Assembly: GCA_003326205.1 (NCBI GenBank)
Contig: LWTK01000035.1
Location: forward strand, 93,931-157,930
Source: Nostoc sp. ATCC 43529
Lineage (GTDB): Bacteria; Cyanobacteriota; Cyanobacteriia; Cyanobacteriales; Nostocaceae
Direction: 5' to 3'
DNA: 64,000 nt
The notes under the pieces were generated by a model, which worked only from the letters and a program-made list of their open reading frames with translations, did not search any database and was not told where the DNA came from. Below, one piece after another: positions 28,458-56,139 of this stretch (within the stretch, counting starts at the first letter, position 1; every line of letters starts with the position of its first letter). Position numbers and translations under genes: made by a program.

Positions 28458-28817
28458 TTAAGAACGTGACATAACAATTATCCCAATCATAATTATTGCT
28501 AATCCAAGGTATTGGTTGAGGCCAAGGCGTTCTCCAAAAAACCAACTTCCAGTAATAGCAATCATTCCAAATCCCAACCCAGCGAAGACAGGGTAAGCTG
28601 TTGAAACTGGTAATTTATCTAATGCTTTAGCAAATAGCACGACGTTCATACTGTAGAAAACCAGTCCGCTGATAAACCAAGGAGACAATAACAATGATAC
28701 TAAACCAGGATCGGGGGCTTCAAGACGCGATCGCTTCAATAACAAATTGCCAATGCAAGTATTGATGCTAGCAGCGAAAACAAAACTCCATGTGTTGAAA
28801 CTAAAGTTGATATTCAT
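28458..28817 (-). CDS. SMR/EmrE-like small membrane transporter
   Basis: 119 residues with four membrane helices (WSFVFAASINTCIGNLLLK; WFISGLVFYSMNVVLFAKAL; LPVSTAYPVFAGLGFGMIAITG; YLGLAIIMIGIIVMS). The PVSTAYPVFAGLGF stretch is typical of the SMR superfamily. It lacks the membrane-embedded Glu14 seen in EmrE-type drug exporters, so it is closer to ArnE/ArnF-like or EamA-like members that move lipid-linked sugars. It is the last gene of the biosynthetic locus, right after a glycosyltransferase, which suits lipid-sugar flipping (inference). Confidence 0.75.
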   Translation of the reverse strand: MNINFSFNTWSFVFAASINTCIGNLLLKRSRLEAPDPGLVSLLLSPWFISGLVFYSMNVVLFAKALDKLPVSTAYPVFAGLGFGMIAITGSWFFGERLGLNQYLGLAIIMIGIIVMSRS

Positions 28818-28898
28818 ACAATCCCGATCAAGAAAATTACTTAATAACCGATAATCAACTCTCTTCTTGAGCGCTTCTAAAGTTGGAATAGCGATAGT

Positions 28899-29906
28899 TC
28901 ATTTCACACAAAAAGATTTTAAATCTTCCAACCACAAATTAACTAAATACAATTCTTTTTGTGGAATAATTCCAGCTTCTACTAATTTTTCATAGCATAG
29001 ACGTAAGTTCTCACCCGTTTGCTCTGGCAGATTTGAGAGCGGTAGATCGCTCAAAATTTGTATAATTCTAACATTATCTAGATAACCAGGAACTTCATCC
29101 TTGAAGTCGCGGATAAGAGAATGCTCGTTTCTTAATTGAAATACAGTTGCTTCTCGAAAAGCAAGGTGTTTACCAAGCTTATACAAGCAGATTTGTGCAA
29201 CGAATGACCGCCAAATGTCTGTCATCCGAAAGCTTACAAAGCTAGGTAAATAAAGGAGTGGATATGCCTCTGGCCACCAGAGGGTGTTCTGGGAGTTGAA
29301 GGGACAGAATGTACCATTCCCAAGAATGACTGTATTCGGCTTGAACTTAGTCTCAGTTTCTGTAGTTAAACGATAAACCGCATCGACATCTGGGTCGCCG
29401 TCAGCTAAATACTGCTGAATAGGGCAATCAAAAGTGGATGCTTCACCTAAAGGACTAGGATTTTTCAAACTTTCATTGACATATTCTAAAGGAAAACCAC
29501 GCGGCCAAATTTTTGTATCTACAAAGTGCGTGTAAATGTTTTCCCAACCTTGCTTGTGCACTGGTTGACCTACAACATGTTTATTAATTTCAGCTAGAAA
29601 AGAATCGTATGGAATGTTATCATCATCTGTCTCAGCAATAATTTCTGCACTAGATTGTATAGCTTTGAGATAACCAATATTTTTTCGGGCATAGTGATTG
29701 ACAGGGCATTCTTTCACTAAGGCACTGGCTAAATTGAGCTGGCCTTCAAAAGAGAGAAAATGAACTCCTTCGCAGTTCCAATCATTCGGACTTTTTTTGT
29801 CACCAACAATGATTATTTTCCAGTTTTTGGAGAATTTTGCTATTTTTTTAACTCCCTCAGTTGGATAGTTTATACTGGTGATAACGATAAATTTTTTATT
29901 CTGCAT
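28899..29906 (-). CDS. DUF288 (STELLO-like) glycosyltransferase
   Basis: 335 residues. It opens with KKFIVITSINYPTEGVKK and WKIIIVGDKKSP. A conserved YARKNIGYLKAIQ motif precedes the acidic ETDDDNIPYDSF (DxD, likely metal/nucleotide-sugar site, about residue 93). Later come NGTFCPFNSQNTLW, YLPSFVSFRMTDIWRSFVAQ and FREATVFQLRNEHSL. These are hallmarks of the DUF288/STELLO family, known from plant and nematode Golgi proteins and some bacteria. The sugar and acceptor are unknown. Its position suggests a glycosylation step on the product of the upstream PKS locus. Confidence 0.82.
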   Translation of the reverse strand: MQNKKFIVITSINYPTEGVKKIAKFSKNWKIIIVGDKKSPNDWNCEGVHFLSFEGQLNLASALVKECPVNHYARKNIGYLKAIQSSAEIIAETDDDNIPYDSFLAEINKHVVGQPVHKQGWENIYTHFVDTKIWPRGFPLEYVNESLKNPSPLGEASTFDCPIQQYLADGDPDVDAVYRLTTETETKFKPNTVILGNGTFCPFNSQNTLWWPEAYPLLYLPSFVSFRMTDIWRSFVAQICLYKLGKHLAFREATVFQLRNEHSLIRDFKDEVPGYLDNVRIIQILSDLPLSNLPEQTGENLRLCYEKLVEAGIIPQKELYLVNLWLEDLKSFCVK

Positions 29907-30088: not shown

Positions 30089-31027
30089 TCAGCTAATAAA
30101 TATATTCGAGTCAAAAGGCATTATCATTTTATTCCAATCTTGATGAATTTCAAAATTTTTAGCATTCTTGAGAGCCTCTAATAATTCACTACGGTATTTA
30201 TAGTTGTATTCCTTTCCACGAATAAGTATACTTTTGACATAAGACCAATTTGTTGGTGTATCTTTATCTCCTGTAAGATAAGATACGCTCTTAAATCTAC
30301 CGACTTTTACTCCACAGTAATCAATATGACTTTTCAAGTGACTTTCGTGGTTTAGTTCATTTTTTCCAAAAAAACAATATTTTTTTAACTTTAGATAATT
30401 CATAGCTCTTAAATCTAGCATGTACTCAAACAAACTTAAATAATGGTCAATATTTGTTTCACTACAAACTGCATGTCTATCATTGTAACCACCGTAATTT
30501 TCTTTTGTAGGTATCCAAATTAAATTAGGATTTAGTAGCTTGAGTGGTGGATGTTCAAGCAGCCAAAGAAAATCTGTTCTTGTAATTACATATCTGTGAT
30601 AACTTAAATTTTTAGATCGTAAATATTCTATTCTTTTCAAGAGGTTCCAAAAATTATAATTTAAATGCATACCCGAACCTTTACGCCCCTTCATCCCGCC
30701 TAACCAATTACCTTCAATATTCAAGTATTTATACCATTCTTCTTTTAAATTATATTTTGTGTAAAACTCTTCAAATAAATTTTCATAACCATACTTAGGA
30801 TTTTCATAAAAAGTCACATCAATAATATTGAGTTTTTCTAAATATTTCAAATACTTTTCATCTTCTGATTTTAGTTTAGTTACACAAACTATTAAATCAG
30901 CGTTTAAAGGTTTAATAACTTTTTCAATTAAGTTTTTATAGGTTATATCAAGTGCTCTTAATGTGCCAACTATACAGATGACTGCACGCTGATTATTATA
31001 ATTTATAGGACTATAAATATGGTTCAT
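30089..31027 (-). CDS. Uncharacterised glycan-related protein
   Basis: 312 residues, AT-rich and Lys/Asn/Tyr-rich. The pattern AVICIVGTLRALDITYKNLIEKVIKPLNADLIVCVTK ... HRYVITRTDFLWLLEHPPL ... NLIWIPTKENYGGYNDRHAVC resembles proteins of capsule and exopolysaccharide clusters with a GT-A-like fold: an N-terminal strand-helix unit, a central R-T-D-F-L-W acidic motif, and a later YGGYNDRH. I cannot name the family with confidence. No signal peptide or membrane helix is visible. It sits between two glycosyltransferase-like genes and is probably part of the same locus. Confidence 0.6.
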   Translation of the reverse strand: MNHIYSPINYNNQRAVICIVGTLRALDITYKNLIEKVIKPLNADLIVCVTKLKSEDEKYLKYLEKLNIIDVTFYENPKYGYENLFEEFYTKYNLKEEWYKYLNIEGNWLGGMKGRKGSGMHLNYNFWNLLKRIEYLRSKNLSYHRYVITRTDFLWLLEHPPLKLLNPNLIWIPTKENYGGYNDRHAVCSETNIDHYLSLFEYMLDLRAMNYLKLKKYCFFGKNELNHESHLKSHIDYCGVKVGRFKSVSYLTGDKDTPTNWSYVKSILIRGKEYNYKYRSELLEALKNAKNFEIHQDWNKMIMPFDSNIFIS

Positions 31028-31492: not shown

Positions 31493-32860
31493 TTACCAGC
31501 AAGCTTTCGCTTTGTTTCCTTGTAGTATGTCAGGTTTTTCTAAACTCTTATTAGTAATTTTTTGAGAAATTAAGAAGGCGCTTGCTAAAACTTCTATTTT
31601 TTTAAGTATTGTATATAAACTTACTTTATCTCTTCCCTTCAATCTTTTCAAAAATTGAAGTGGTTCTGTGAAAATAGATAAAGGAATTTTACCACCTGAT
31701 GTTATAGTACTAATATTATGTCTTCCATAGCATAACTCCAATGCATGATGACCAGCACTCCATCTAGATACTTGCTCTACCCAAGCTTTTTTTGATGGTT
31801 TATCCATCGTTGTATCGATAGAACTGAAAGTTCTATTTATAGAAACAACATCTAAAAATACTTCATATATAAAACCTGCATACTTAGCTAAAATTGTGAG
31901 ATGAGTATCTTCAACCCTCATCCCTGGATAAGTTTGAGCGATAACAACTAACAAACTAATAAGTGCATCTGTCCTTCCAAATGTGCCTCCTCCTTGCATC
32001 CACTGAAAGCCATTGTGTCTACCATGCATCAGGTCTAAAAATAATTGGATAGGAGGAATTTCTTGATTAAAGTCAGGGAGAAGAATTTCAATTCCATCTA
32101 CCATAGCTTTTTGATATACAGCAAATCTATTTCTAGTACTAAAAATATCTATTTGCGGATGCTCATTCAAGTGATTAATCATTAATTGTAAGCCGTTAGA
32201 ATCTAAATCTAAAAAAGGATATTTTCTTTCAATAAAAAACAGAGATTCAGCATCGAAAGTAAATAATATTGCAGGAGGTATCCATCCATTTTCTATGCTA
32301 TTCAAGAGCAACGAACAATAAATATCACCCAATACTCGAATTTTACCTGCCGCATGTAGTCCTTCTTTTTGATGAACTACAAATATTCTATGCTGTAAAT
32401 AATTGGAAACGATATTAGTTAATAAATATGGTTTTCCTGCACACATTAAATTGTCAAATATTTTCGATGGTATATTATTTGCCGCTTTTTCATCAGTATA
32501 TAAATGAATAACTTGAACATTTGGCAGCAAAGTAAAACGGTTGATAACAGTCGGAGCTTCAAATCCATTATTCAAACCGATTACAATATCAGCCATCATC
32601 CCTGTTTCAGAAATTTGGTCAATAATTTTAGGGATAGTATAGGGGAAATATTTATCGGCACTTTTACCAGCTGCAACAATTCCTAATATTCGGGTGCTAT
32701 CAAAAGTATTATTAGTTTTAGCTTGAATCGATTCTCTGCAAGACAGAATAGCTTTTACATCTGCTTCTAACGTTCTGTCTTGTTTTTGCTGTATTGTAAG
32801 TCTTTCCTCTTTTAAAAATTTATTTGACTGTTGTGATGGTAATAATTTCGTAAAAAACAT
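31493..32860 (-). CDS. GT-A-like protein, paralogue A
   Basis: 455 residues, with an aaggag ribosome-binding site before the ATG. It is similar along its whole length to the protein at 34098-35462. Features point to a family-2-type glycosyltransferase: TRILGIVAAGKSADKYFPYTIPKII, MMADIVIGLNNGFE, the putative metal motif FTFDAES, GGGTFGRTDALISLL, and an acidic RVEDTHLTILAKYAGF like the ED of GT2 enzymes. A hydrophobic patch near 425-437 may associate with the membrane. The last residues PDILQGNKAKACW are nearly the same as in its paralogue, although the preceding 60 residues have diverged. Confidence 0.65.
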   Translation of the reverse strand: MFFTKLLPSQQSNKFLKEERLTIQQKQDRTLEADVKAILSCRESIQAKTNNTFDSTRILGIVAAGKSADKYFPYTIPKIIDQISETGMMADIVIGLNNGFEAPTVINRFTLLPNVQVIHLYTDEKAANNIPSKIFDNLMCAGKPYLLTNIVSNYLQHRIFVVHQKEGLHAAGKIRVLGDIYCSLLLNSIENGWIPPAILFTFDAESLFFIERKYPFLDLDSNGLQLMINHLNEHPQIDIFSTRNRFAVYQKAMVDGIEILLPDFNQEIPPIQLFLDLMHGRHNGFQWMQGGGTFGRTDALISLLVVIAQTYPGMRVEDTHLTILAKYAGFIYEVFLDVVSINRTFSSIDTTMDKPSKKAWVEQVSRWSAGHHALELCYGRHNISTITSGGKIPLSIFTEPLQFLKRLKGRDKVSLYTILKKIEVLASAFLISQKITNKSLEKPDILQGNKAKACW

Positions 32861-33007: not shown

Positions 33008-33895
33008 TTAATTGTGTTTGTGATACCTTATATAATGATGAACTGATGTAGCGCTACTATCTGTGGCAAAAATATTGGCATTTGCACGCTTGCGGTTCAG
33101 TTTAACTATGTCCAACCAATGGTAAAGTTTATCTACAAGTTGTGGACAAAATTGCCCAATAGCAAACATTAGTTTAGCCATATTTGTTGTTAGCGAATTT
33201 TGATTAACAATTATCTCCGCTTTGTTTTGTTTGATAGCTTTAATCACTGCATTTGCTACATCTATTGGCGTAGATGTACCTGCTAACCAAGGAGCAGGTA
33301 TCCGGCTATTAATAGTCATACCAGTTTCGGAGATATATCCTGGACAAATTACCGAAATATTAGTATCGGTAGCAGCTAATTCTTGCCGCATAGCATCAGT
33401 CCACATAATCAAACCAGCTTTACTTGCAGAATAAATGCTGTTGTAAGGAACTCCCTTTTTACCAGCCAGAGAAGCAATATTAACAATGTGACCAGTACGC
33501 CGTTCCAACATGCTTGGTAGAAACAAACGGGTTAATTCCGCAGCAGCGAGTAGATTAATTGTCAATATAGACTGGAGATCGTCTAGAGAATAATCAACAA
33601 AATCTCGATAAATTTCTATGGCAGCATTATTAATTATGATGTCTACTGGGCCAACAACTTTATTAATTTGCTGTTTAAGAGTTGATAATTCTGCCACGTT
33701 TTTAATATCAAAGGGAATACTTATCCCTTTGCCACCCAAAGCTTTTATTTGAGCGCATGTTATATCTAGTCCTGACTTCAAACGAGAAACGCAAACTACA
33801 GTTGCTCCTTCTCTGGCTAAAGCGCGAGCAATGTATACTCCTAAACCGCGTGATGCGCCTGTCAAAAGTATTGTTTTATCAGCTAAACTTGTCAT
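33008..33895 (-). CDS. Short-chain dehydrogenase/reductase in the PKS locus
   Basis: 295 residues from ATG 33895 (aaggtg site upstream); the frame extends to a GTG at 33904. It has TGASRGLG for the cofactor, NNAAIEIYRDF, the catalytic Ser in NIASLAGKKG and YxxxK as YSASK. The C-terminal ~60 residues extend beyond the core with a hydrophobic LMFAIGQFCPQLVDKLYHWL, suggesting membrane association with a lipid substrate. It lies between the two GT-A-like paralogues. It probably reduces or oxidises a group on the lipid or the sugar (inference). Confidence 0.82.
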   Translation of the reverse strand: MTSLADKTILLTGASRGLGVYIARALAREGATVVCVSRLKSGLDITCAQIKALGGKGISIPFDIKNVAELSTLKQQINKVVGPVDIIINNAAIEIYRDFVDYSLDDLQSILTINLLAAAELTRLFLPSMLERRTGHIVNIASLAGKKGVPYNSIYSASKAGLIMWTDAMRQELAATDTNISVICPGYISETGMTINSRIPAPWLAGTSTPIDVANAVIKAIKQNKAEIIVNQNSLTTNMAKLMFAIGQFCPQLVDKLYHWLDIVKLNRKRANANIFATDSSATSVHHYIRYHKHN

Positions 33896-34097
33896 GGTAA
33901 ACACCTTAAGTTTGAATCTATTACTGTCACACTATTTAAAGTTCAACAAAAATTTCAACTTTAAATAACAGTTTTTTTAGAAACCTTAAATATTGATTTC
34001 TATTACTTTTTTCACAGCCTTTTTAGTGTAGTAGCTGAATAAGTTAAATTAAATAAGCTACAAATATACAGCATGTTATTTACTAAATATAATAATT

Positions 34098-35462
34098 TTA
34101 CCAAAAAGCTTTTGCTTTATCACCTTGTAGAATATCAGGGTTTTTAGTACTATGTTTTTGAATTTTTTGATAATACAAAAAACTCAAAAATAATAATTTA
34201 CTTTTATTAAATATAGTATTTAAATTAATACTTTTATTTGCTATTACCAGCTTCAAAAATCTAATTGGATGAGTCAATGTAAACCAAGGAAAACCGATAT
34301 TTACCAACATGCTAATATTATGCTCTCCATAAAGTAATTTTAATGACTCAACAGAAGTTAACCATCTATAAATTTGTTCTATCCAAGCTTTTCTTTGTGG
34401 GTGTTCCATTGTCATATCTGCGATACTGGGAGTTCTGTTTGTAGAAATCACATCTAAAAATATGTCACCTATAAAGCCTGCATACTTGCTTAAGATTGTG
34501 AGTTGAGTATCCTCAGTTCTAATGCCTGGATAATTTATAGAAATTACTATTAACAAACTAACTATCACATCAGTTTTGCCAAATGTGCCTCCTCCCCATT
34601 TACATTCAAAGCTACTGAATCTACCATGAACAATATCTATAAACCATTGGATAGGAGGCAGTTCTTCACTAAAATCAGGCAGTAAAATTTCAATTCCATC
34701 TACTATTGCTTTGTGGTAAACTGCAAACTTATTTCTTGTACCTAAAATATCGATTTTCGGGGAATTTAGGAGTTGGTTTATTATTAATTTTAAGCCATTA
34801 GATTCTAGATCTATAACTGAATAATTGCGTGCTACTAAAAACTGAGACTCAGCATCAAAAGTTATTAAAAGGGCAGGTGGTATCCATCCATGTTCAATAC
34901 TCTTGAGTAATAATGAACCATAAATATCTCCCAAAACTCGAATTTTTCCTGCTGAGTTTTGCCCCTGTTTTTGATGGACAACAAATATTCTATGTCTGTA
35001 TTTGTAAGCGCCAGTGTTAGTTAAACAATATGGTTTACCTTGGCACATTATATTGTCAAATATTGGTGCTGGAATATTGTTTGCTAACTTTTCTTGAGTA
35101 TATAGATGAATGATTTGGGTATTTTGCAACAAAGTAAAACGGTCGATAATAGCGGGACATTCAAAGCCATGATTTAAACCAATGACTATATCAGCCGTCA
35201 TTCCTATTTCCGAGATTTGTTTAATAATTTGAGGGATAGTATAAGGTAAATAATTTTCGGCTCCTTTAGTGGCTGCAACTATTCCTAATATTCGAGTCTT
35301 GTCGAAAGTATGGTTAGTTTGAGTCTGAATCCAATCTCTATAATACAGAACAGATTTTACATCTGCACTTAAAGTTCTGTTTTGCTTTTCCCGTAATGCA
35401 CTTTTTTCTTGGTAAAGTTTTCTGGATTGATCAGATACTTTGAGTAAATTATTCAAAAACAT
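34098..35462 (-). CDS. GT-A-like protein, paralogue B
   Basis: 454 residues from the ATG at 35462, preceded by aaggagcaaatta. The frame is open six codons further, but the paralogue also begins MFxx at this point. It overlaps the end of the ABC transporter gene by 14 bp, so translation is coupled. The same motifs as paralogue A are present: ADIVIGLNHGFE, ITFDAESQF, GGGTFGKTDVIVSLL, RTEDTQLTILSKYAGF, and the C-terminal tail PDILQGDKAKAFW. I infer a GT2-like glycosyltransferase acting on the locus product. The duplicated pair could add two different sugars. Confidence 0.65.
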   Translation of the reverse strand: MFLNNLLKVSDQSRKLYQEKSALREKQNRTLSADVKSVLYYRDWIQTQTNHTFDKTRILGIVAATKGAENYLPYTIPQIIKQISEIGMTADIVIGLNHGFECPAIIDRFTLLQNTQIIHLYTQEKLANNIPAPIFDNIMCQGKPYCLTNTGAYKYRHRIFVVHQKQGQNSAGKIRVLGDIYGSLLLKSIEHGWIPPALLITFDAESQFLVARNYSVIDLESNGLKLIINQLLNSPKIDILGTRNKFAVYHKAIVDGIEILLPDFSEELPPIQWFIDIVHGRFSSFECKWGGGTFGKTDVIVSLLIVISINYPGIRTEDTQLTILSKYAGFIGDIFLDVISTNRTPSIADMTMEHPQRKAWIEQIYRWLTSVESLKLLYGEHNISMLVNIGFPWFTLTHPIRFLKLVIANKSINLNTIFNKSKLLFLSFLYYQKIQKHSTKNPDILQGDKAKAFW

Positions 35463-37104
35463 TAATTTGCTCCTTTCCATTATTTAAATGTTCAGTTTTC
35501 ACTTGACCGTATTCCAGCTTGACGATTCGATCTGCTAAGTAAAAATATTGGTCGTCGTGGCTAATAACCAGTACAGTTTTTCCTCTATTCTTTAGCTCTA
35601 AAAGAAGTTGAGTATAAAAAATTTCCTTGAACACAGGATCTTGATCTGATGCCCACTCATCAAACATATAGATAGGACGGTCTTCTAAATAGGCAGTGAC
35701 TAAAGCAAGGCGCTTGCGCTGTCCTTGAGAAAGGTCGGTGGTAGAAAGCACTCCATTATTGACCTTAACTTTATGGTCTAGTTGCAATTGAACGAGGTAC
35801 TTTCGAGTCTGAATATCTAGATCGTTACTATCTAGACCAAGGAAGCGATCAAAAAGATAAAAATCAGAAAATACTACAGAAAACTGCTGGCGATACCACT
35901 CTAAATTATGATTATCTATCAGCTTGTCATCTAGATAAATCTTTCCTGTTTCAGGGATGTAAAGTCCAGTAATTAATTTAGCGAGGGTAGACTTGCCACT
36001 ACCGTTACCTCCTACAATAAAAACAAGTTCTCCTGGATGAAATTTCAAGTTAATAGGCCCCAGGATGAAGTTGCTTTCTTCTTTTTCCTGATAATAGGTA
36101 TGGGTTACATTTATTAGTTTTAGGCAGTTCCAATATTTATCTGATACCAGCGAAACATTGTAACCAATTTCGTTTGAGTAATTTGCTAATGATAGTCCCA
36201 GAGACTCCACTTTATTTAAAGCAACTAAGGCTTTGGTTATACCAGGCATCATACTCATAATGTATTCTAAAGGTGATATTAAGTAAATAATGGTTAAGGC
36301 ATAGGCAGATACAATTGCTGGGGAAATTTTATTGATACTAGGAATGATAAATAAAAGCAAACCTATAGCAACAAAAAATAGAATTTGTCCCCAACTAGCA
36401 GCAGCAGCAAAGATACTCATACCCGCAACATGATGACGGCGAGATGATAGGGCACTGGTATGCAACTCTTCAGACAGAAATGCTTGCCGTCGTCGGTGAT
36501 GTAGCTTCAGTTCTTTTGTGCCTTGAATGACGCTGCGAAAATGCTTAAATAATCTATCTTCCTGTTCACGAGCCAATTTTAAAAAAGACATAGCTTTTAT
36601 CATTGGTACTGAATAGCTGAATATTCCCAGGAACATAAAGCTAATACCTATTAGGAAAACAATTTTAGATAACCAACTCAGATAAATCAGGCAGGCAATC
36701 ACAATGGCAATGTTAATGCACAGAAAAGGAACAGTAATAACTGTGTTAGATATTGTTTGAATATCTTCAGTGAGAACGGCTAAAAGACTATGAGCGCCGA
36801 TTTGTTCTAACTGACGTAGGGGTGAGGCAAGAATACGACTGGTTAAAATTATCCGTAAGTTGAGAATTGCTTTTTGTGAAAGCTGGATTAACAAAAATTG
36901 CGAAGTAAAATTAGCAACTAACCGCAGTAAACAAAGACAGATAAAACTCCAAATAAGTATAGCTTTTGATGGGTGATTTTGACTCAATGTCTTATTAATT
37001 AATGCAATTAGAGCAGCGGCAGTGCCGCCGCTGAAAATCCCAGCTAAAATTGCAAAACAAAGCTGAAGAGAAGAAGTACGTAATAGCAGACGGATTAAGT
37101 TCAT
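35449..37104 (-). CDS. ABC exporter of the cyclic peptide/siderophore type (PvdE/SyrD-like)
   Basis: 551 residues from ATG 37104; a GTG at 37140 is also open. A six-helix membrane domain (about 1-300) is fused to one nucleotide-binding domain with Walker A GGNGSGKST, signature LSQGQRKRLAL and Walker B IYMFDEWASDQDP. The DEWAxDQDP form is typical of the PvdE/SyrD/cyclic peptide transporter family that moves modified peptides or lipopeptides across the plasma membrane. This suggests that the locus product, or an intermediate, is exported to the periplasm. The gene for GT-like protein B starts within its last codons. Confidence 0.9.
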   Translation of the reverse strand: MNLIRLLLRTSSLQLCFAILAGIFSGGTAAALIALINKTLSQNHPSKAILIWSFICLCLLRLVANFTSQFLLIQLSQKAILNLRIILTSRILASPLRQLEQIGAHSLLAVLTEDIQTISNTVITVPFLCINIAIVIACLIYLSWLSKIVFLIGISFMFLGIFSYSVPMIKAMSFLKLAREQEDRLFKHFRSVIQGTKELKLHHRRRQAFLSEELHTSALSSRRHHVAGMSIFAAAASWGQILFFVAIGLLLFIIPSINKISPAIVSAYALTIIYLISPLEYIMSMMPGITKALVALNKVESLGLSLANYSNEIGYNVSLVSDKYWNCLKLINVTHTYYQEKEESNFILGPINLKFHPGELVFIVGGNGSGKSTLAKLITGLYIPETGKIYLDDKLIDNHNLEWYRQQFSVVFSDFYLFDRFLGLDSNDLDIQTRKYLVQLQLDHKVKVNNGVLSTTDLSQGQRKRLALVTAYLEDRPIYMFDEWASDQDPVFKEIFYTQLLLELKNRGKTVLVISHDDQYFYLADRIVKLEYGQVKTEHLNNGKEQINVFE

Positions 37105-37178
37105 AACGTAATTGATTAACAACCCATAGTATTGGGGCACATTAGCCGGCTACTTGTGATTATTTGACTATGTTATAA

Positions 37179-37616
37179 CTAGCGAACCAGCAGTTTGTAC
37201 TTAGTCAGTTGTTCTTGGGAAGAAAAATAATTGACATCATAAGCCTCACTATATTGCTTAATTAAAGTAGGAATAATCGGACGCAGAAATCTGAAAGACC
37301 ACTCTCCTATGTAATATCGAATATAAGCAAAAATATCGGTATGAAATATAGATATTATTTGGGTGCCTGTTCGCCTTGGGTATTCGGTGCCAATAGGGCG
37401 ACCATAACCTTGGAGAAAAAGCGAATAGAGCCTTAACATGCAGCGATCGCGAACTTGTTTAGGATATAGATCGTTGACTCCAGGATGGATTAAAAAGACT
37501 TCATGCCCCTGCTGTAGCAACCAGCGAACCCGCTGGTGTACTCCCATAGAAACCCCCGACATGAATGGAGCATATAGTGCAGTAAAAATCGCAATCCGAA
37601 GAGGTTGTTTATTCAT
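37179..37616 (-). pseudogene. Truncated GT4-type glycosyltransferase
   Basis: 145 residues from the ATG at 37616 (MNKQPLRIAIFTALYAPFMSGVSMGVHQRVRWLLQQGHEV). This is the N-terminal Rossmann half of a GT4/SqdX-like glycosyltransferase (normal length about 370-400), with HTDIFAYIRYYIGEW and FSSQEQL. It stops at KYKLLVR, and the whole UDP-sugar-binding C-terminal half is missing; the ABC transporter gene starts 75 bp later. It is probably a remnant. A sugar-epimerase fragment lies just upstream. Confidence 0.75.
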
Positions 37617-37679
37617 GATGTAACACTTTATATCTATGGATGATGGTCTAACACTTTGTATTAAACCTTTCTCAATCAA

Positions 37680-41660: not shown

Positions 41661-41966
41661 TTAAATCTCAAAAATTTCTGACTCTGAAGCTTTAGATTCT
41701 TCGGCTAAACGCTCGGACAAAGTTTCAATAGTGGGGTAACGCCACAATAAAATTGGAGATAGCTCAAAACCAAACAACTTCTCCGCTTTGCTAACAAGAA
41801 GCATTGCTTGTGCTGACTCTAAACCGTAACTATCTAAAGGCTGTCGGACATCTATATCTTTGGGTTCAACTCCCAACTGCTCTGCAATATGAGAGACTAA
41901 CCAAGCTTGAATTTCTTCTGCGGTATAAGACTGCTTTTTAATTGCTTCAGGACTAGACTGGCTCAT
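41661..41966 (-). CDS. Stand-alone acyl carrier protein
   Basis: 101 residues. The phosphopantetheine attachment site is Ser51 in [11 protein letters not shown], with the following helix and [24 protein letters not shown] as in PKS-type ACPs. An N-terminal extension of about 15 residues and an acidic C-terminus ([13 protein letters not shown]) are present. It sits between the ferredoxin/diiron oxygenase pair and the acyltransferase, so it may carry the substrate that is oxygenated and then transferred. Confidence 0.9.
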
Positions 41967-43866: not shown

Positions 43867-43880
43867 GTAATTTTACTCCT

Positions 43881-45542: not shown

Positions 45543-45593
45543 GTTTAGACCTCTGCTCAGATAATGTAGCTGAATAAAAGTATGCAAATTTTA

Positions 45594-48500: not shown

Positions 48501-48854
48501 AGGAAGTGCCGCATCTTTCAAACTGCGATCGGCTACCTCAAGCATCAACAGTTCTTGAGAATTAAAATTTTCTATTTCTTCTGGTGGGATTTCTAAAGGT
48601 AAAGCATTAATTTCAAAATCTTTAATGTATGCACCTAATGGCGCTAGATCCTCAGCAAAATCATAGTTTTTTAGCAACTCTTTTTGTGTTTCTATTCCTT
48701 GCCATCGCTGAGGAGGTATGGAAATAAAATGCTGAGTTCCCTCATAAATACTGCGTTCAAAGGTATCTAATCCCTTACAATCGCCGCCCATATAGCAATC
48801 CATTCCGACAATTGCTATTTTAGGAGTTTTATTTTTTGCAAATTCTTCCATCAC
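45594..48854 (-). CDS. PfaB/HglD-like protein: inactive KS plus AT
   Basis: 1086 residues. Residues about 10-440 have a ketosynthase fold but no KS active site: the Cys position is Glu (LTAEENSV, about residue 172) and the first His of EAHGTG is lost (YLEVVGSG), while the NIGHT His is kept. Residues about 550-870 are an acyltransferase with nucleophile Ser in GYSLGE (about 643) and HVIHCEP. A helical C-terminal tail (FLQARQESLKQISIII) ends the protein. This matches PfaB-type dead-KS-AT proteins, which load or edit acyl groups on the PKS. It lies between the PKS and PfaD genes. Confidence 0.87.
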   Translation of the reverse strand: MMEEFAKNKTPKIAIVGMDCYMGGDCKGLDTFERSIYEGTQHFISIPPQRWQGIETQKELLKNYDFAEDLAPLGAYIKDFEINALPLEIPPEEIENFNSQELLMLEVADRSLKDAALPQGTRIAIIIVTPTELSRKTNIEKDSEYPSYIENDLANYISKLWNYAGPAFTLTAEENSVFKALELAQKLLAIKEVDAVLVGAVELAGDGASVLLRNQIAKVNTGVNTLSYDENVNGWIIGEGAAAVVLKLHETAKQENDRIYATIDALSLLENSINPTPQEAITQACQMAFELANIKPTYINYLEVVGSGIPQQDESEIQGLIQAYRTSEVNLSCAIGSVKANIGHTYTVSGIISLIKTALCLYHRYIPAVPQWSKPKMPEVWQGSPFYVATESKPWFLEKGSIKRIAAINGMEGDGSYVHLILSEEVCQKHRSSKYLEQMPYYLFAIAADDQSSLLEEVRNLQETIKNCSSLSNAASQTFATFQQRQQATYAVAILGHNQDELQREIQHSLKGITNAFETGKDWQSPLGSYFTAKPLGQKGKIAFVYPGAYSAYLGLGRNLFRLFPQLYDDPLIGSVYKRVANVEKLIYPRSLERLSNRQLEVIEKQFLNNSVAVLESEMGCAGMMTAILKNYFQVKAQCAFGYSLGEISMMLAQGVWTQFQEGSEGFNSSSLLKTRLSGPKNSVREYWGLSQAEDDKHENFWRNYIVMCPVSRVREAIKQEKRVYLPLINTTEEVAIAGDIQACKRVIANLNCDAFSAPFTHVIHCEPMCSEYDELVRLNTFPTQNVPETIFYSAAEYKPIKLDSHSIAHNIAKNLCQQLNFPQLINRVYQDGFNIFIEVGAGSNCSRWINKVLNEKEHLTVTFNKRGVDDHTSFLKALAKLLSYRVNLDLSPLYSQVKEVSHNSQSRVKNVTLDSTMVNYTSLRNNNQKIVQQDIYLHPIINIKQHKDALPDLKELTLMNYSFTENAEHFSKKLENISEPVNLQNGSQPARLLLQERNLQTVEKSQAKENWTTEEKNNEYNLTTYSVADESHLFNFRSPLYQKLSENASQMTKAHAVFLQARQESLKQISIIIQSQIACYQKLFE

Positions 48855-48990: not shown

Positions 48991-51900
48991 TTAAATTTCG
49001 TCTAATTGCTTGGGCAAAATAGTTCCCTTAGCTCCTAGCATTCGGGTATATATTTGTCCTTGCTGATTATGGGCAATGACATCAACAACTAAAGCCGATT
49101 CTGTCTTGGATTTAATTTGACAAGAAACATAAAATGTTTCATCAAATGGCACAGGCACAAACTGTTCAAAGGTTGTGATTTCTGAAGGTAAACAAGCTAC
49201 TTGATGAAAATGTTGTGCCCAAATCCAAAATGCATGAATCTGTACATCTGTAATGTAAGGATTAAATGTTTGGACTGGGAATTGTCCTTGCTGTTTTTCG
49301 TGAGGTTCCGGCAAGTAACATTCTATGGTAATCTTGTCCAGATTGGCATTTAAGACAGATTTTACGCCTTGAAAAGTAGCTCCGTGAAATAAAGTAGTTG
49401 TCCCATTTTGATAAAGCGATGAATCGGTAGCAGTGATTTTGCCATCCTGGCTTAAGTTCATCAATTTGTGTGTTGGGGCGCTAGGAATTTCCCGCTTTAG
49501 TTTCATTTGGCTACTGAAATGATAACGGATTTTACCTTCAGGCGTTTTACTCCAAATTTTGGCATCAAAATCTATTTCTGAAATACCAGTTTTAGCAATT
49601 TCTTGCAACTCTAAAGTGTATTCAGTTGGCAAATTTTCATCAAAGATTAGCCCTTTCAAAACTTTATAGTTTGTGCAACTGAAGGCTTTGTAACCAGGAT
49701 AGAGTTGTTCGCAGGTATTAGCAATCCATAATAGTCCACAAGTTGCTGGTAAAACTGGATGGCCTGCAATTACGTGGTCTTGTAAAAATGGATTAGCTGC
49801 TAATTTTAGATGCCTGTGGATACGAAACTTTTTCAACTCATTTGGTAATTTATCTGGGACATATACCAAAGGGCTACCAATAATAACTTGCACAGTTTCT
49901 TGATTGGCGCTAGCTAGTTCCTCAGCTAACATTTTTGTGCCAATTTTAATCGGAATAGTCTCGATATTGCGTTCAGCAAAAGCTTGTTTTAATTCCGGAG
50001 AAACCATACCACTGTCCCAAGGACCCCAATTAATCGCTACGACATGAGCATCGGGATGGTTGAGTTTGAAAAGGTGGGCTGATTTGTTGAGGATTTCATT
50101 AGCGATCGCATAATCAGACTGTCCCACATTTCCGTAGAAACCAACTACAGAAGAAAACAGGACTAAATAATTCAATTGATTCGGCAATACACACCGCAAT
50201 AGGTTTTCTAAACCTTTAACTTTGGCAGCGTAAACTGTTTCAAAATCTTGGAGTGATTTTTTCTCAATCCGCTTATCAGCTAAGTTACCAGCCCCGTGAA
50301 TAATTCCTGTTACCGCACCAAAACGCTCAACTATACTAGCAACTTGTTCAGAAACAGCCAATCCATCAGTTACATCCACACTCAAATATTCAGCTTGTCC
50401 GCCCGCCTGTTCAATAGCTTGTAGGGTTGCGGCAATTTCCCGACTAGATGAAATAGCGTTAAACCTTTTCTGCACCATTGCAGGTGTCGGCTTTTCTCCT
50501 CTAGCTAGGAAATCCTCCATAATCTGCTTTTTCAAATCTGCTTCACCCAAGTAGCCTTCAGCCCACACGGGTTCTGAACCAGCGGCGGAACGACCTAGCA
50601 GAATAAATTTGCATTGATAACGCTGCGCTAGCTCGATGGCACACTGAGCTGTTATCCCTTTGGCGCCGCCACTGACGAGAAAAACTTGGGATTGGGGATT
50701 GGGTACTGGGGATTGGGAAAACCCTTCCCCAGTCGCCAGTCCCCAGCCCCTAGTCCCCAATCCCTGTATTAGGGTTACTCGTCCTTGTGGGCTATATCCT
50801 GTTTCGACAACTAATAGATTGGGGTCTTGGAGTTCGGCGAGGATATACTGTGCTGATGTTTGAGGATCTAAATCGGGACTGAGGTCGATCGCTCGACAAA
50901 ATACATTTTCCCATTCCTGGTTTAAAGTTTTGGTCAGCCCAAATAAGCCAGCGCCAATGGCACCAAAGTTAGTTTTATGTCCCAGTCCGAACTCGCCATC
51001 AAGACGAGCCACAGTTACAAAACAACTACGTCCTTGAGTGGCTGCTTGATTGAGCGGTTCTTTGAGATATTTGGCAATCAGAAAGACATGGCGAAGAATA
51101 GCTTTTTCTGATTCTAGATAGCGGACACCATTGCTACTATCTTCATGATTTGAGGGATTGAGATGGATAAATGCGGCGATTTGACCATAGTTAGTAGCGA
51201 TCGCTGTTAACTGTTCTTGCAAATGTTCCTCGGTCAAATCTGCAAGCACTACCCGACTAATCCCTTCAGCTAAAGGCAATTGTTGAGCAATCAAACTTTG
51301 AGGAAAACTTAAGACAACAATTTTCCAACCCCGGCTATGCAAAATCTCAGCCAGTTTCGCCGTCGTCAGAGAACCATCATCGGTAAGCAAAGCGATATGC
51401 TCATCAGGTAAGGTGAAATCTAAAACATCAGGTTCGGGAAGATATTTCAGTCTGACGGGACTGCGAAGAATTTGGGATTGGGTATTGGGGATTGGGGATT
51501 GAGAAAACTCTTTCCCAGTCCCTAGTCCCCAGTCCCTAGTCCCCAGTCCCTCTTGTATATATCCAAGAAGTTGCCCCACGGTAGGCACTTGAGCCAATAT
51601 TTCTGGATTCAGCTTGGGTAAATCAGGGTAAAGTTCTGACAATGCTCCTTGAATTTCCACAAGTTTGACACCATCAATTCCCAAATCTGTTTCTATATCC
51701 ATTGACAGATCTAACATCGTCGTTGGGTAGCCTGTTTTATCGCTAACGACGTTGAGGAAATTTTTAGTGAATTCTGGATCTGCTGAGTCATTAGATGAAA
51801 CCTCCCGGTGCCCCCGCGTCTCCGTGTCCTCTTCTCCCTGCGCCACGGTATCTACTGCGATCGCGGGTGCAAGTCCGGCTGAGATTTCTGATGCGATTTT

Positions 51901-54900
51901 CGCCATATACTCAGCTATTTGAGCGAGGGTGCGTAGCTGTCCTACTTCTTCGGGGTTTGGCTTGGGCAAATCAGGATATAGTTCTAGCAATGCTCCCAAA
52001 ATTTCTACACGTTTGATGGAATCAATCCCCAAATCTGCTTCGATATCCATCGTTAGTTCTAACATCTCAGTTGGGTAGCCTGTTTTATCACTAACGACGT
52101 TCAGCAGAGTTTGACTGAGGGTAGCTTCATCAATGACTACTGGTGCGGCGGGTGCTACCGTTGCGATCGCAGCTTGATTCTCTTTTGGTGAGGTAATATC
52201 CACAACTGGTGGTGCGGATATTTGCGTTGCAGTCTGATTTTCGTTGGCTGGGGTAATATCCAGAACTGCTATTGCTTGATGATTTGCACCATTACTTGTG
52301 CCGTTACCATTAGTTAAAGCTGGCTCAGTTTTGCTAGCAAATCCATTGCTAGGTACAACAACAGATGCATTATTAACAATCAGATTGTCTTCTTTTGATA
52401 ATGAAACCGTCGGACTATCTTGATAGTTTACTGGTGCTATTAGACTTTGTTGAATGGTATTGCTAGAAGCCGGCAGTTGATAATGTCGCTGAAGCAATTG
52501 GAACAAGTTATTAGTGTATTCCTGCTGATAGTTGAGATATTGTTCATGGATGCGGAGACTTTCACCTTGATGGTCGTGAAACCGCATGATGCTACGCTCG
52601 GAACTAGAGACTATTTGTTGCTGTGTTGCTATTGGTGATTCGCTAAATTTACTATTTTTCCACAACCCATGTTGTTGTTCCATGAGTTGAAAGAAGGTTT
52701 TGGTATATTCTGTCTGATGCTTTAAAGATTGTTCGTGAATTTGTAAGATGTCATGTTGATGGCGATTAAATTCTATTAAGGTGTACTCTAAGTTATCTAT
52801 AGCTGTTAGATAATTCCGAGGCAGTTCGGCGCTAGTTTGTAAAGACTTGAAATCGAGTTGTTCTGATTGCCCGTTCTGCACAGATTTCACTCCACCATTA
52901 ACTGTTACTTTCTCTGTTGTTAGAGAGGGATTATATGTTACTGATTTATGGTTATTGCTATTAGTAACAGGAGATTGATGATTTACTGCTACTTTCTCTG
53001 AAGGATTATATGTTACTGGGTTATGATTATTGCCATTAGCAACAGGGGATTGATCGTTGACTGCTACTTTCTCTGTTATTGGAGAGGCTGTTGGTGAGTG
53101 GGGTGTATTGCCGTTAGTTGCAGTAGATTTTACTTGATACCCATTTTGCATAGCTTTCTCAAAGGACTGCTTGGTTTTTTCTGACACATAATTAGTGCTA
53201 TTTAAGCGAATATTCAAAACCTTGTTCGGGGAAACTTCTAGGATTTTCTGCTCTAGTTGATAGGGGTCTAAGTTTTGTAAAGGTAATCCAGCAACGCGCA
53301 ACTGGATAACAGCTTCTCTCAAAGAGCGATCGCTATCTTTGAGATGACTGGGATTTAAAGCCACAGCTAAATGAGGGCGATCGCTTAAAATATCTTTGAC
53401 TAAGTTGGTGAGAACGCTTCGCGGCCCAAATTCAACAAAGCAGTAACCGCCTTCAGCATAAATATTTTCAATTTCCTGCTTAAACAATACTTGATTTGTC
53501 AAGTGTTCTTTGAGAACTTTTTGAATAACTTGCGCTTCACTTGGGTAACGCTTGCCGGTCACATTGGTGTAAACCGGGATTTGTGGCTTGTTGAAAGTCA
53601 CTTTCTCAATTGCTTTGGCAAAGGGTTGCTGTGCATGAGCCACTAATGAAGTGTGAAAAGCTGCTGAAACCGACAACAAAACTGTAGAGAATCCTTGAGT
53701 TTTCAGAGCTTCTTGCACATTAGCAATTTCAGCTTTTGCCCCAGCCAACACCATTTGATTTTGGGAATTCAAGTTAGCAATGCTGATTTCGGGGAAACTT
53801 TGAATTACTTGTCTAACTTGATTGACATCCCCTTTCACGGCTAACATTGCTCCTGCATCAAACCGGGGATCTGTTGGTGTCGCCATTGCTTGACCCCTAG
53901 CTTTCACCAGGAAAAAGTAATCTTCTTCACTCAAAACCCCCGCAGCCCATAAAGCGGTAAGTTCTCCAAAGCTGTGTCCAGCAACAAAATTCGGCTTGAA
54001 TCCAGCTTTTTGCAATATCTTGTACAGCCCAGCGCTAAAAGCCCCAATTGCTGGCTGTGCGTATTCTGTTTGCTGCAACAGCTTCATTTGGGCAGTTTTT
54101 CGATCTAAATCGAACACAGGCGCAGGGAAAACAACTTCTGAAATCGGCTGCAAGCCATCTTTGCTCAAAAGGTTATCAATTTGAGTATAAGTCTGTCCCA
54201 AGGAAGGGAAATTAATCGTCAGTTCGCGACCCATTTCTAAATATTGCGAACCTTGTCCCGAAAATAGGGCAACTACTTTCCCTTCTGTAACTATGCCTGT
54301 TTTGCGGTAGTAAATACCTTGGGGATGCTCCCAAGATTCTACTTGCAGCTTGTTTTTCAGCAATTCAATACTTGTTTGTAATAAATTGCCAGCTTGGGCG
54401 AGAGAATCAGCAACAAACCCAAGTCTGGCATTTGCCACTGGAATTTCTAAAGATTGAGATGCTGCAATCAATTCTGCATAATGCTGCTCTCCCGCCTCTG
54501 ATTGCAATTGATTTTTGATTGCTTGACAACGGGACAACAATTCTTCAGGTGTTGGCGCAAATAACAACACTGATTGAGCAGGTTTGTGTAAACGATAAGG
54601 GTGATTGTGTTGGGTTTGGTATTCTTCCAAAATCACGTGATAATTTGTGCCACCAAAGCCAAAAGAACTCACTCCTGCCCTTCTTGGCTGGTCGTCGCTA
54701 GTAATCCAAGGTCTGGTTTCGGTATTTAAATAAAATGGGGAATTCTCAATATCTAATTTAGGATGGGGTTTGGTAACGTTAATTGTGGGTGGTAATACTT
54801 TGTGGTGCAAAGCTAAAGCTGTTTTGATCAAACTCGCCGCACCCGCAGCCGCTTTTGTATGTCCAATTTGTGATTTTACGGTTCCCAAAGCAATATATTG

Positions 54901-56139
54901 TTTTTTGGGATTGTTTTCGCCAAAGACTTCTTTAATCGAGCTAAATTCCGCTGGATCTCCAGCCATAGTACCGGTACCGTGTGCTTCAATCAAACCGACA
55001 CTAGCAGGGGAAAATCCCGCATCTTCGTAAGCACGACGTAAGGCTCTGACTTGGCCTTCTGGACGGGGTGCATAGATGCTTTTATAACGCCCATCGCTGG
55101 AAGTACCAATGCCTTTGATGACTGCATAAATGCGATCGCCATCTCGTTCGGCATCTGCAAGGCGCTTGAGTACTAACATCCCGACCCCTTCACCCAACAT
55201 CATCCCATCGGATTCTGCATCGAAAGGTTTGACATTTTGACCAGGCGAAACGGCAGGAGTTTTACTGAAACACATATACGCCAAAATTGAGTTGTCGGTG
55301 TCAACTCCGCCGGTCAGCATCATGTCAGCGCGATGTTCAACTAGCTCACTAATTGCCATTTTTAAAGCACCTAATGAACTAGCACAGGCAGCATCTACGA
55401 CACAGTTAGTCCCTCCAAAATCTAGGCGGTTAGCAATTCGTCCAGAAACAACGTTTGCAAGCATACCAGGAAAGGCGTTTTCTTCCCACTGCACATATGC
55501 ACTTTTGATTTTCTCGATAATTTTTTGTGTATCCTCATCGGATAAACCACTGCTTTTCAGGGCTTTTTCCCAAATCGGATACTGCATTCTGGAAGTTAGT
55601 GGCACTCCTAACTGTCTACCTAGTGCTACACCTAAGATTACGCCAGTGGCCTGATGATTAAACTGTCGGGATTCGCCGTAACCGGCGTCTTCCATCGCGG
55701 CTTTAGCAACAATCAAACCTAGCAATTGCGAAATATCTGTAACTTCTAAAATGTTGGGCGGTAGTCCAAATTCCATCGGATTGAAATTAACATCTGGGAT
55801 AAATCCACCTCTTTTACAGTAGGTTTTGTCAGGTGTTCTGGGGTTAGGATCATAATATTCATTTATGTTCCAACGGGAAGCAGGAACATCAGTAATACAA
55901 TCAACTTTATGAATGATTTTTTCCCAGTATTCTTGTAAGTTTTTTGATTGCGGGAATATAGAAGCCATGCCAATGATGGCAATATCAACTTGTTGCTGCT
56001 GAGTGCTAATTTTGGTATTTAATGGTGAATTTTCAACCATAATTTTTTTTCCTTGTATGAGTTTGAGTACAGCTTGTTCACAATTGCTTACTTCTTCTTG
56101 CAACTGTGCCAAAACAGCTTCAATTCTAGAAGCGGCCAT
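48991..56139 (-). CDS. PfaA/HglE-like type I PKS (KS-AT-ACP-ACP*-KR-DH)
   Basis: 2382 residues from ATG 56139; a TTG at 56205 would add 22. Numbering here is from 56205. KS at 70-530 with VDAACASSLG (Cys about 272), EAHGTG and GHTKAA, so active. AT at 650-950 with GHSFGEL (about 745). A linker at 1080-1330 holds a 25-residue tandem repeat (EKVAVN...NNHNPVTYNPS) and two helical HEQxLxxQxEYT units. ACP1 about 1360-1430 (LGIDSIK); ACP2 about 1490-1550 (LGIDGVK, no Ser). KR about 1835-2070 (SGGAKGITAQ; YAIANE). DH about 2140-2404 (HVIAGHPVLP). One iterative module of the hgl/PUFA type, with no ER and no thioesterase. Confidence 0.9.
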   Translation of the reverse strand: MAASRIEAVLAQLQEEVSNCEQAVLKLIQGKKIMVENSPLNTKISTQQQQVDIAIIGMASIFPQSKNLQEYWEKIIHKVDCITDVPASRWNINEYYDPNPRTPDKTYCKRGGFIPDVNFNPMEFGLPPNILEVTDISQLLGLIVAKAAMEDAGYGESRQFNHQATGVILGVALGRQLGVPLTSRMQYPIWEKALKSSGLSDEDTQKIIEKIKSAYVQWEENAFPGMLANVVSGRIANRLDFGGTNCVVDAACASSLGALKMAISELVEHRADMMLTGGVDTDNSILAYMCFSKTPAVSPGQNVKPFDAESDGMMLGEGVGMLVLKRLADAERDGDRIYAVIKGIGTSSDGRYKSIYAPRPEGQVRALRRAYEDAGFSPASVGLIEAHGTGTMAGDPAEFSSIKEVFGENNPKKQYIALGTVKSQIGHTKAAAGAASLIKTALALHHKVLPPTINVTKPHPKLDIENSPFYLNTETRPWITSDDQPRRAGVSSFGFGGTNYHVILEEYQTQHNHPYRLHKPAQSVLLFAPTPEELLSRCQAIKNQLQSEAGEQHYAELIAASQSLEIPVANARLGFVADSLAQAGNLLQTSIELLKNKLQVESWEHPQGIYYRKTGIVTEGKVVALFSGQGSQYLEMGRELTINFPSLGQTYTQIDNLLSKDGLQPISEVVFPAPVFDLDRKTAQMKLLQQTEYAQPAIGAFSAGLYKILQKAGFKPNFVAGHSFGELTALWAAGVLSEEDYFFLVKARGQAMATPTDPRFDAGAMLAVKGDVNQVRQVIQSFPEISIANLNSQNQMVLAGAKAEIANVQEALKTQGFSTVLLSVSAAFHTSLVAHAQQPFAKAIEKVTFNKPQIPVYTNVTGKRYPSEAQVIQKVLKEHLTNQVLFKQEIENIYAEGGYCFVEFGPRSVLTNLVKDILSDRPHLAVALNPSHLKDSDRSLREAVIQLRVAGLPLQNLDPYQLEQKILEVSPNKVLNIRLNSTNYVSEKTKQSFEKAMQNGYQVKSTATNGNTPHSPTASPITEKVAVNDQSPVANGNNHNPVTYNPSEKVAVNHQSPVTNSNNHKSVTYNPSLTTEKVTVNGGVKSVQNGQSEQLDFKSLQTSAELPRNYLTAIDNLEYTLIEFNRHQHDILQIHEQSLKHQTEYTKTFFQLMEQQHGLWKNSKFSESPIATQQQIVSSSERSIMRFHDHQGESLRIHEQYLNYQQEYTNNLFQLLQRHYQLPASSNTIQQSLIAPVNYQDSPTVSLSKEDNLIVNNASVVVPSNGFASKTEPALTNGNGTSNGANHQAIAVLDITPANENQTATQISAPPVVDITSPKENQAAIATVAPAAPVVIDEATLSQTLLNVVSDKTGYPTEMLELTMDIEADLGIDSIKRVEILGALLELYPDLPKPNPEEVGQLRTLAQIAEYMAKIASEISAGLAPAIAVDTVAQGEEDTETRGHREVSSNDSADPEFTKNFLNVVSDKTGYPTTMLDLSMDIETDLGIDGVKLVEIQGALSELYPDLPKLNPEILAQVPTVGQLLGYIQEGLGTRDWGLGTGKEFSQSPIPNTQSQILRSPVRLKYLPEPDVLDFTLPDEHIALLTDDGSLTTAKLAEILHSRGWKIVVLSFPQSLIAQQLPLAEGISRVVLADLTEEHLQEQLTAIATNYGQIAAFIHLNPSNHEDSSNGVRYLESEKAILRHVFLIAKYLKEPLNQAATQGRSCFVTVARLDGEFGLGHKTNFGAIGAGLFGLTKTLNQEWENVFCRAIDLSPDLDPQTSAQYILAELQDPNLLVVETGYSPQGRVTLIQGLGTRGWGLATGEGFSQSPVPNPQSQVFLVSGGAKGITAQCAIELAQRYQCKFILLGRSAAGSEPVWAEGYLGEADLKKQIMEDFLARGEKPTPAMVQKRFNAISSSREIAATLQAIEQAGGQAEYLSVDVTDGLAVSEQVASIVERFGAVTGIIHGAGNLADKRIEKKSLQDFETVYAAKVKGLENLLRCVLPNQLNYLVLFSSVVGFYGNVGQSDYAIANEILNKSAHLFKLNHPDAHVVAINWGPWDSGMVSPELKQAFAERNIETIPIKIGTKMLAEELASANQETVQVIIGSPLVYVPDKLPNELKKFRIHRHLKLAANPFLQDHVIAGHPVLPATCGLLWIANTCEQLYPGYKAFSCTNYKVLKGLIFDENLPTEYTLELQEIAKTGISEIDFDAKIWSKTPEGKIRYHFSSQMKLKREIPSAPTHKLMNLSQDGKITATDSSLYQNGTTTLFHGATFQGVKSVLNANLDKITIECYLPEPHEKQQGQFPVQTFNPYITDVQIHAFWIWAQHFHQVACLPSEITTFEQFVPVPFDETFYVSCQIKSKTESALVVDVIAHNQQGQIYTRMLGAKGTILPKQLDEI
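50686..50765. repeat. Intergenic-type tandem repeat captured in PKS linker (copy 1)
   Basis: Inside the PKS gene, just before the KR cofactor motif. The DNA is an array of 'ggggattggg' / 'ccagtccccag' units forming a palindrome, the same family as the intergenic array 7692-7722. It is read in frame as GLGTRGWGLATGEGFSQS and following residues. It is 80 bp, with no stop in the coding frame. Confidence 0.8.
51468..51552. repeat. Intergenic-type tandem repeat captured in PKS linker (copy 2)
   Basis: Between ACP2 and the next domain. Another ggattggggattg...cccagtccctagtcccc array of about 85 bp, translated as GLGTRDWGLGTGKEFSQS and following residues. It is nearly the same peptide as copy 1, although the two loci are otherwise unrelated. 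Confidence 0.8.
51800..51843. repeat. Intergenic-type repeat captured in PKS linker (copy 3)
   Basis: Between ACP1 and ACP2. A pyrimidine-rich 'cccccgcgtctccgtgtcctc' block like the one after gatA (12615-12656), translated in frame as QGEEDTETRGHREV. Confidence 0.65.

Follow-up and report, generated by a model that had tools for sequence, protein, structure and literature searches.

Gene organization of the locus

The window analyzed here is a stretch of 64,000 nucleotides from the 8.46-Mb genome of the cyanobacterium Nostoc sp. ATCC 43529, and it carries a lipid-synthase locus of the heterocyst glycolipid (hgl) kind with a gene for a diiron protein lying between the synthase and carrier genes. 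Sixteen minus-strand open reading frames (ORFs) lie within 28458-56205. Counted from the polyketide synthase (PKS), they encode the PKS, a protein with an inactive ketosynthase (KS) and an acyltransferase (AT), PfaD, the diiron protein, a ferredoxin, a free acyl carrier protein (ACP), a PapA-like acyltransferase and a TubC_N protein, followed by a remnant of a GT4-family glycosyltransferase (GT), a TIGR01194 exporter, GT2-type paralogues, a short-chain dehydrogenase/reductase (SDR), a DUF7796 protein, a STELLO-like protein and a small multidrug resistance (SMR) transporter. Since the eight-gene core is collinear in 12/12 relative loci, the locus is not a chance assembly. The core genes are as follows.

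48991..56205, minus strand: PfaA/HglE+F+G-like PKS with the domain order KS-AT-ACP-ACP*-ketoreductase (KR)-dehydratase (DH), from KS, AT, ACP, KR and DH Pfam matches; an ATG start gives 48991-56139
45594..48854, minus strand: PfaB/HglC-like protein with an inactive KS (no Cys) and an AT (GYSLGE); TIGR02816, 150.2 bits against a cut-off of 144.3
43881..45587, minus strand: PfaD enoyl reductase; TIGR02814, 667 bits against 449; 77% identical to the canonical PfaD of the same genome
42568..43866, minus strand: diiron protein of the AurF/CylC superfamily with EExxH and HxxDExxH motifs; PF28091 (precomputed)
42118..42417, minus strand: [2Fe-2S] ferredoxin (Fer2) with CxxxxCxxC, the likely partner of the diiron protein
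41661..41966, minus strand: free ACP (PP-binding) with a C-terminal docking-type tail, SEIFEI
40295..41623, minus strand: PapA/condensation-like acyltransferase with HHAIADG; Condensation/PapA_C
38259..40136, minus strand: protein with a TubC_N (beta-hairpin docking) match and, from a structure model, a predicted class II aldolase/AraD-fold domain (about residues 328-624)

A preliminary description of this DNA had proposed a lipid locus of the Pfa/hgl type that includes a diiron protein and genes for sugar transfer and export. The gene content bears this out: the genes it named lie where it placed them, most with Pfam or NCBIfam matches, and neither a thioesterase in the operon nor PfaC, the KS-chain length factor (CLF)-dehydratase/isomerase subunit of the polyunsaturated fatty acid (PUFA) synthase PfaABCD, is found among the typed genes of the locus. 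The C-terminal DH region of the PKS was missing from that description. The locus is real and conserved, and its core is of a known kind; the oxidation cassette, the docked aldolase-fold protein and the exchange of the release gene are new as far as our searches show.

Relationship to the canonical hgl island and to hgl-like islands

The canonical hgl island of this genome lies on another contig (C105), separate from the window locus, and so the idea that the window holds the only hgl island was rejected. The C105 island contains PKS ORFs, a 1591-aa KS-CLF-AT protein of the HglC type, PfaD, HglB (ACP and thioester reductase, 504 aa), an SDR, and DevB and DevC relatives that are 53% and 60% identical to the window genes. 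The window PKS is 57-60% identical to the HglE-type PKS ORFs of the same genome over long aligned parts. The PfaB-like protein barely exceeds the score of its family; it has the AT motif GYSLGE and lacks the active-site Cys in TAEENSVFKALELA, and the N-terminal KS found in the 1591-aa protein is absent, leaving one inactive KS and an AT. The PfaB-like protein thus has no counterpart of the active KS of HglC. Compared with the canonical island, in the same genome and as described in part in PMC8073705, the PKS, HglC-like protein, PfaD and DevB/C are common to both, whereas the window locus lacks this KS, the HglB thioester reductase (none among the Pfam-typed genes of 28458-56205) and the serine of the second ACP of the PKS. 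PfaD was considered as an unusual feature and rejected, as canonical hgl clusters have it too. The statement that the locus has no reductase applies only to a chain-releasing thioester reductase; KR, PfaD and an SDR are all present.

PfaA (E+F+G domains), PfaB (C), PfaD (A), DevB and DevC are all present in and next to the window locus, with DevB and DevC above their cut-offs and linked to the synthase genes; the hgl letters are assigned to these domains partly on our own presumption. The same set, DevB/C with hglE, F, G, C and A homologues beside a separate extended island, characterizes the smaller hgl-like islands, for which the portion of PMC11804610 used here gives seven genes, related to hgdC, hgdB, hglE, F, G, C and A, that occupy five ORFs and lie apart from the extended island. 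In that portion their product is stated to be unknown, no heterocyte glycolipid types are tied to them and they are absent from some akinete formers. The core thus fits a published island type, with DevBCA adjacent, and the earlier view that the locus is unlike hgl systems does not hold. Relative to the hgl-like islands of PMC11804610, the window adds the diiron-ferredoxin pair, the TubC-aldolase protein, the free ACP and PapA; a text search of the main text of that paper finds no mention of TubC.

A PfaD tree of 48 rows places 14 of the 17 rows labelled canonical in a single clade (99/99) and the other three (L129, L132 and L163) outside it. The label means only that no TubC island is known there, and gene-by-gene checking covered the locus of this genome alone. 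The 18 diiron islands group together with weak support (71/25), and a node of these 18 with two others has 84/82. The PfaD match in one relative (G007) has one in-frame stop, perhaps because the copy is damaged or because the match runs too far. The second ACP of the PKS lacks the carrier serine in 13/13 loci of the genus, with Gly in nine, Ala in three and Arg in one. Both ACP serines are kept in the canonical island of this genome, in the diiron islands of G510, G418 and G341, which belong to other genera, and in 10/12 other TubC islands, the exceptions being L107, in which one ACP is seen, and L113, with Ala.

The diiron protein and the neighbouring ferredoxin

A search for the diiron family listed 60 proteins, the window protein included. 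The first motif reads EExDH in 59/59 of the listed proteins that cover it, and HxxDExxH is covered by 59 of the 60. The preliminary description spoke of an AurF-type oxygenase. A diiron protein is indeed present; the AurF match is weak (16.4 bits for PF11583 against a gathering score of 29.6), PF11583 being precomputed for 6/60 of the listed proteins, and the protein has its own family, PF28091. It shares with the AurF N-oxygenases the superfamily and an acidic residue at the D135 position, and differs from them in falling below the Pfam cut-off and in its context of acyl carriers. A search of solved structures with the protein alone gave two implausible matches (E 0.11 and 1.4), and with an alignment none at E<=10.

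The protein can also be compared with the CylC/NocO dimetal halogenases, which are alike in HxxDExxH, in the ligand set and in a nearby ACP; the window protein is about 26-29% identical over part of its length to the CylC-type protein L040. The motif is QExxH in 3/3 CylC-type comparators (L040, L114 and L115). In the part of PMC12101540 considered here, this Gln is one of nine residues that 241 further homologues also conserve, the Q128A variant of NocO is inactive, and AurF has Asp at this position. The diiron family has Glu instead, and the remaining eight CylC positions are invariant in it: E89, E121, H124, E249, H272, D275, E276 and H279, with E89 and E249 placed by our own alignment. Because a Gln essential in NocO is Glu throughout the diiron family, we infer from the sequences that the exchange favours oxygenation over halogenation.

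A ferredoxin match adjoins the diiron gene in 17/17 named loci, of which 16 are Pfa islands; in the other, from Ca. Cyanaurora vandensis, the diiron and ferredoxin genes stand alone between ordinary genes. Across the phylum, the diiron gene is found in 7/386 sampled genomes, and one of them (G333) has the pair without Pfa genes. In LEGE 12450, a ferredoxin-like match (42%) lies directly beside a CylC-type gene (405-aa ORF; L086, about 11939-13446) at a locus without a PfaD match, and ferredoxin pairing may extend beyond the diiron family. A partner ferredoxin was accordingly rejected as a mark that sets the diiron subfamily apart from the halogenases.

Two allele types of the diiron gene occur in the genus. 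Those of G014, G001 and G022 are 89-92% identical among themselves and 66-70% to the other ten, and the PfaDs of the same three are 86-93% identical to those of the other ten, so that the alleles cut across the PfaD groups and a diiron gene that strictly follows strain descent was rejected. This pattern suggests that the oxygenase has been exchanged and the synthase kept. In Amazonocrinis nigriterrae (L057, 10001-10553), the match to the diiron gene falls into two overlapping segments, so that the gene looks broken or frameshifted.

The free ACP, the TubC protein and the release step

The carrier adjoining the TubC protein has a C-terminal docking-type tail in 39/39 loci (21 + 18), and this tail and the TubC_N domain are predicted to form a putative docking pair. 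Such an arrangement resembles the pairs of short linear motif and beta-hairpin domain treated in PMC9113145, in which the next enzyme receives a short C-terminal tail of the carrier through a docking domain at its own N terminus; an aldolase-fold enzyme is absent from the partner types listed in the part of that paper considered. The class-II-aldolase fold of the remaining part is assigned from a predicted model with a mean pLDDT of 82.9, and a sequence-family search finds no aldolase family up to E 10. H521, H523 and H581 are invariant in the alignment of TubC proteins, and this HxH...H pattern may correspond to the three-His metal motif of class II aldolases. Several records name the protein a nonribosomal peptide synthetase (NRPS); this was rejected, as only TubC_N is found and no condensation, adenylation or peptidyl carrier domain. 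The TubC gene match in one relative (G005) has one in-frame stop, possibly from a damaged copy or an overrunning match.

TubC proteins occur in 15/148 genomes sampled from the order, this one included. Twelve of the 14 other TubC loci have PfaA, PfaB and PfaD beside TubC, and the other two (L114 and L115) are FAAL-ACP-CylC-PKS-PKS-TubC-SDR clusters, so that the docked aldolase-fold enzyme is also present in halogenase pathways. The diiron gene gives no match above 60 bits in these 14 loci. Free ACP and TubC are found in all 12 Pfa-type islands and are the constant pair across them. PapA lies between PfaD and TubC in five (L102, L104, L105, L106 and L108). In four others (L109, L111, L112 and L113), an HglB-like ORF or ACP match occupies the place of canonical HglB; the ORF is 490-506 aa long in L109, L112 and L113, and its reductase domain is recognized by Pfam in L112. 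The corresponding stretch is split over two ORFs in L107, and L103 and L110 have neither PapA nor an HglB-like gene. These observations suggest that the releasing reductase is replaceable and that the acyltransferase is not its universal substitute. Release through the acyltransferase, as first proposed, is possible in this locus and is not general.

Sugar-transfer, export and flanking genes

The remaining minus-strand genes are as follows.

37179..37679, minus strand: GT4 glycosyltransferase remnant, lacking about 55 internal residues kept in two relatives
35449..37140, minus strand: cyclic-peptide-type ABC exporter; TIGR01194, 506 bits against 286
34098..35480, minus strand: GT2-type paralogue a (GTa), with invariant D97, D209, E211, D324 and QxxRW
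33008..33904, minus strand: SDR oxidoreductase (adh_short) with TGxxxGxG and YxxxK
31493..32860, minus strand: GT2-type paralogue b (GTb), 59-60% identical to GTa
30089..31027, minus strand: DUF7796 protein, possible glycosyltransferase, in 1/12 relative loci
28899..29906, minus strand: STELLO/DUF288-like glycosyltransferase, in 1/12 relative loci
28458..28817, minus strand: SMR/EamA small transporter (Multi_Drug_Res match), in 5/12 relative loci as fetched

GTa and GTb have no Pfam matches and a predicted GT2-type fold; the GTa model (pLDDT 92.1) matches hyaluronan synthase best, at E 2e-10. QxxRW is present in 49/49 aligned rows, and we presume that it and the four acidic residues have their usual GT2 meaning. 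The description of both genes as GT-like is thus confirmed. One metagenomic relative of 748 aa (P0249) is joined to a second, Pfam-recognized GT2 domain.

Upstream of the PKS, the following genes adjoin the core.

56804..57199, minus strand: 131-aa conserved protein, 78-90% identical in 12/12 relative loci
57848..58171, plus strand: 107-aa protein, 94-99% identical in 12/12 relative loci
58422..59627, plus strand: DevB/HgdB-type membrane-fusion protein; TIGR02971, 348 bits against 129
59907..61079, plus strand: DevC/HgdC-type permease; TIGR01185, 455 bits against 290
61101..61793, plus strand: DevA-type ATPase; TIGR02982, 377 bits against 296

The DevBCA exporter (58422-61793), outside the span of the preliminary description, belongs with the locus: a DevB orthologue (E<=1e-150) is present in exactly those 13/59 genomes that carry the diiron gene, this one included, and three of the 13 have a second DevB copy at 68%. 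The 107-aa protein also accompanies the island outside the genus (86-94% in L104, L105, L106 and L108); a family search with it gives no family, only a sub-threshold DUF772 match. Another set of DevBCA genes, about 67-79% identical to those of the window, is found at G000:C36 (L085, about 117,000-120,000). An MpaB/rubber-oxygenase-family gene (62191-63321) directly follows DevBCA on the same strand. On the other side, the island is flanked by a histidine kinase with an ethylene-receptor (ETR1) N-terminal domain (26196-28232) and a second response-regulator/kinase protein (24665-26179), followed by argJ.

Proposed pathway and alternative explanations

On balance, we consider it probable that the locus represents a second hgl-like island for a secondary lipid, one that has gained an oxidation cassette, with oxygenation, docking, ester and export chemistry inferred from its genes. 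PfaA, the inactive-KS/AT protein and PfaD would work iteratively on the single functional ACP of the PKS to make a long chain, reduced in part, which would then pass to the free carrier. There the diiron protein, with electrons from the adjoining ferredoxin, may oxidize the ACP-bound chain, for instance by hydroxylation or another C-H oxidation of this kind. The C-terminal tail of the ACP would dock onto the TubC beta-hairpin domain, allowing the metal-dependent class-II-aldolase-type domain to modify or release the chain. The PapA-type acyltransferase would form an ester, the GT2-type and strain-specific transferases may add sugars, and DevBCA, the TIGR01194 exporter or both would carry the product to the envelope. 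The most likely product, as far as its chemistry can be deduced from these genes, is an exported long-chain lipid that is oxygenated and may also be esterified and glycosylated. Literature searches of titles and abstract openings for the product of the island or its gene set found none, in agreement with the earlier statement that no known product matches. Secondary lipid synthases (PMC3098273, in part) and PKS-NRPS-PUFA hybrids (PMC13291983, in part) share the Pfa-type iterative synthase, whereas the window locus has no PfaC, NRPS or modular PKS partner.

Several points weigh against this reading. The diiron-ferredoxin pair stands without a PKS in two distant cyanobacteria, and so its substrate need not be the chain of the island. 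A ferredoxin beside a CylC-type gene means that the partner ferredoxin does not separate the diiron enzyme from the halogenases. The aldolase assignment comes from a predicted model without a sequence-family match, and the GT/SDR/SMR block varies between strains and could be partly unrelated. The sequence itself shows the gene content and order, the domain states, their conservation, the linkage to DevBCA, the carrier tail, the docking domain and the predicted folds, from which the steps of the pathway are deduced.

A less likely alternative is that the left half (28458-35480, with the GTs, SDR and SMR) is an unrelated, often-exchanged surface-sugar neighbourhood that does not glycosylate the lipid. 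The differing GT/SDR/SMR content of the relative loci, with STELLO and DUF7796 genes in 1/12 and SMR in 5/12 as fetched, fits this, as does the locus of G001, which has neither GTa/GTb nor an exporter match. Against it, 8/12 relative loci have the exporter together with an entire GTa-type gene on the side of TubC, and in L104, from another genus, a relative of GTa neighbours TubC. Sugar-transfer genes are present, as first described; since they vary from strain to strain, glycosylation is the weakest part of the proposed product.

It is rather unlikely that the locus makes a chlorinated lipid, with the diiron protein acting as a CylC-type halogenase. In the part of PMC8406957 considered here, LEGE Nostocales strains are listed with three CylC clusters that are called "nitronate monooxygenase-containing", include PKSI, ferredoxin, ACP or GT and have no known product. 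LEGE 12450 carries a diiron island (L049), which may or may not be the same as one of these clusters. Eight of the nine CylC positions are matched, two of them by our own alignment, a ferredoxin-like match also adjoins a CylC-type gene in LEGE 12450, and the NocO assay used a ferredoxin (PMC12101540, in part). However, the ninth position is the Gln whose replacement by Ala inactivates NocO, and it is Glu in every covering protein of the diiron family. Moreover, a CylC-type query in LEGE 12450 finds another locus (E<=1e-3) and not the diiron gene, and the 19-kb stretch around that locus has no PfaD match.

A variant heterocyst or akinete glycolipid, to which the common ancestry with hgl genes and the neighbouring DevBCA would point, is improbable, given the canonical island kept elsewhere in the genome, the absence of HglB here, and the lack of heterocyte glycolipid types tied to hgl-like islands and their absence from some akinete formers in PMC11804610 (in part). 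Because the genome keeps its canonical island, the product of the second, hgl-like island is probably not the heterocyst glycolipid itself.

Implications

Published work describes hgl-like islands as widespread among heterocytous cyanobacteria, and they have no assigned product. The variant described here names concrete genes, namely the diiron-ferredoxin pair, the docked aldolase-fold enzyme, the acyltransferase at the place of the reductase and the serine-less ACP, which make the question of the product testable. The Glu/Gln contrast near the diiron site offers a natural comparison for halogenation versus oxygenation. It is conceivable, though doubtful at present, that the island runs a new carrier chemistry, in which a ferredoxin-paired diiron oxygenase of a new subfamily, with Glu for the halogenase Gln, would oxidize a long chain bound to the ACP, after which a docked, metal-dependent aldolase-fold enzyme would carry out a PKS chain release or C-C bond step of a new kind. 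If this reading is true, the diiron-ferredoxin pair and the docked aldolase-fold enzyme, both also found in other cyanobacterial settings, would be portable modules. The locus also suggests that a synthase of the heterocyst-glycolipid type can gain an oxidation module.

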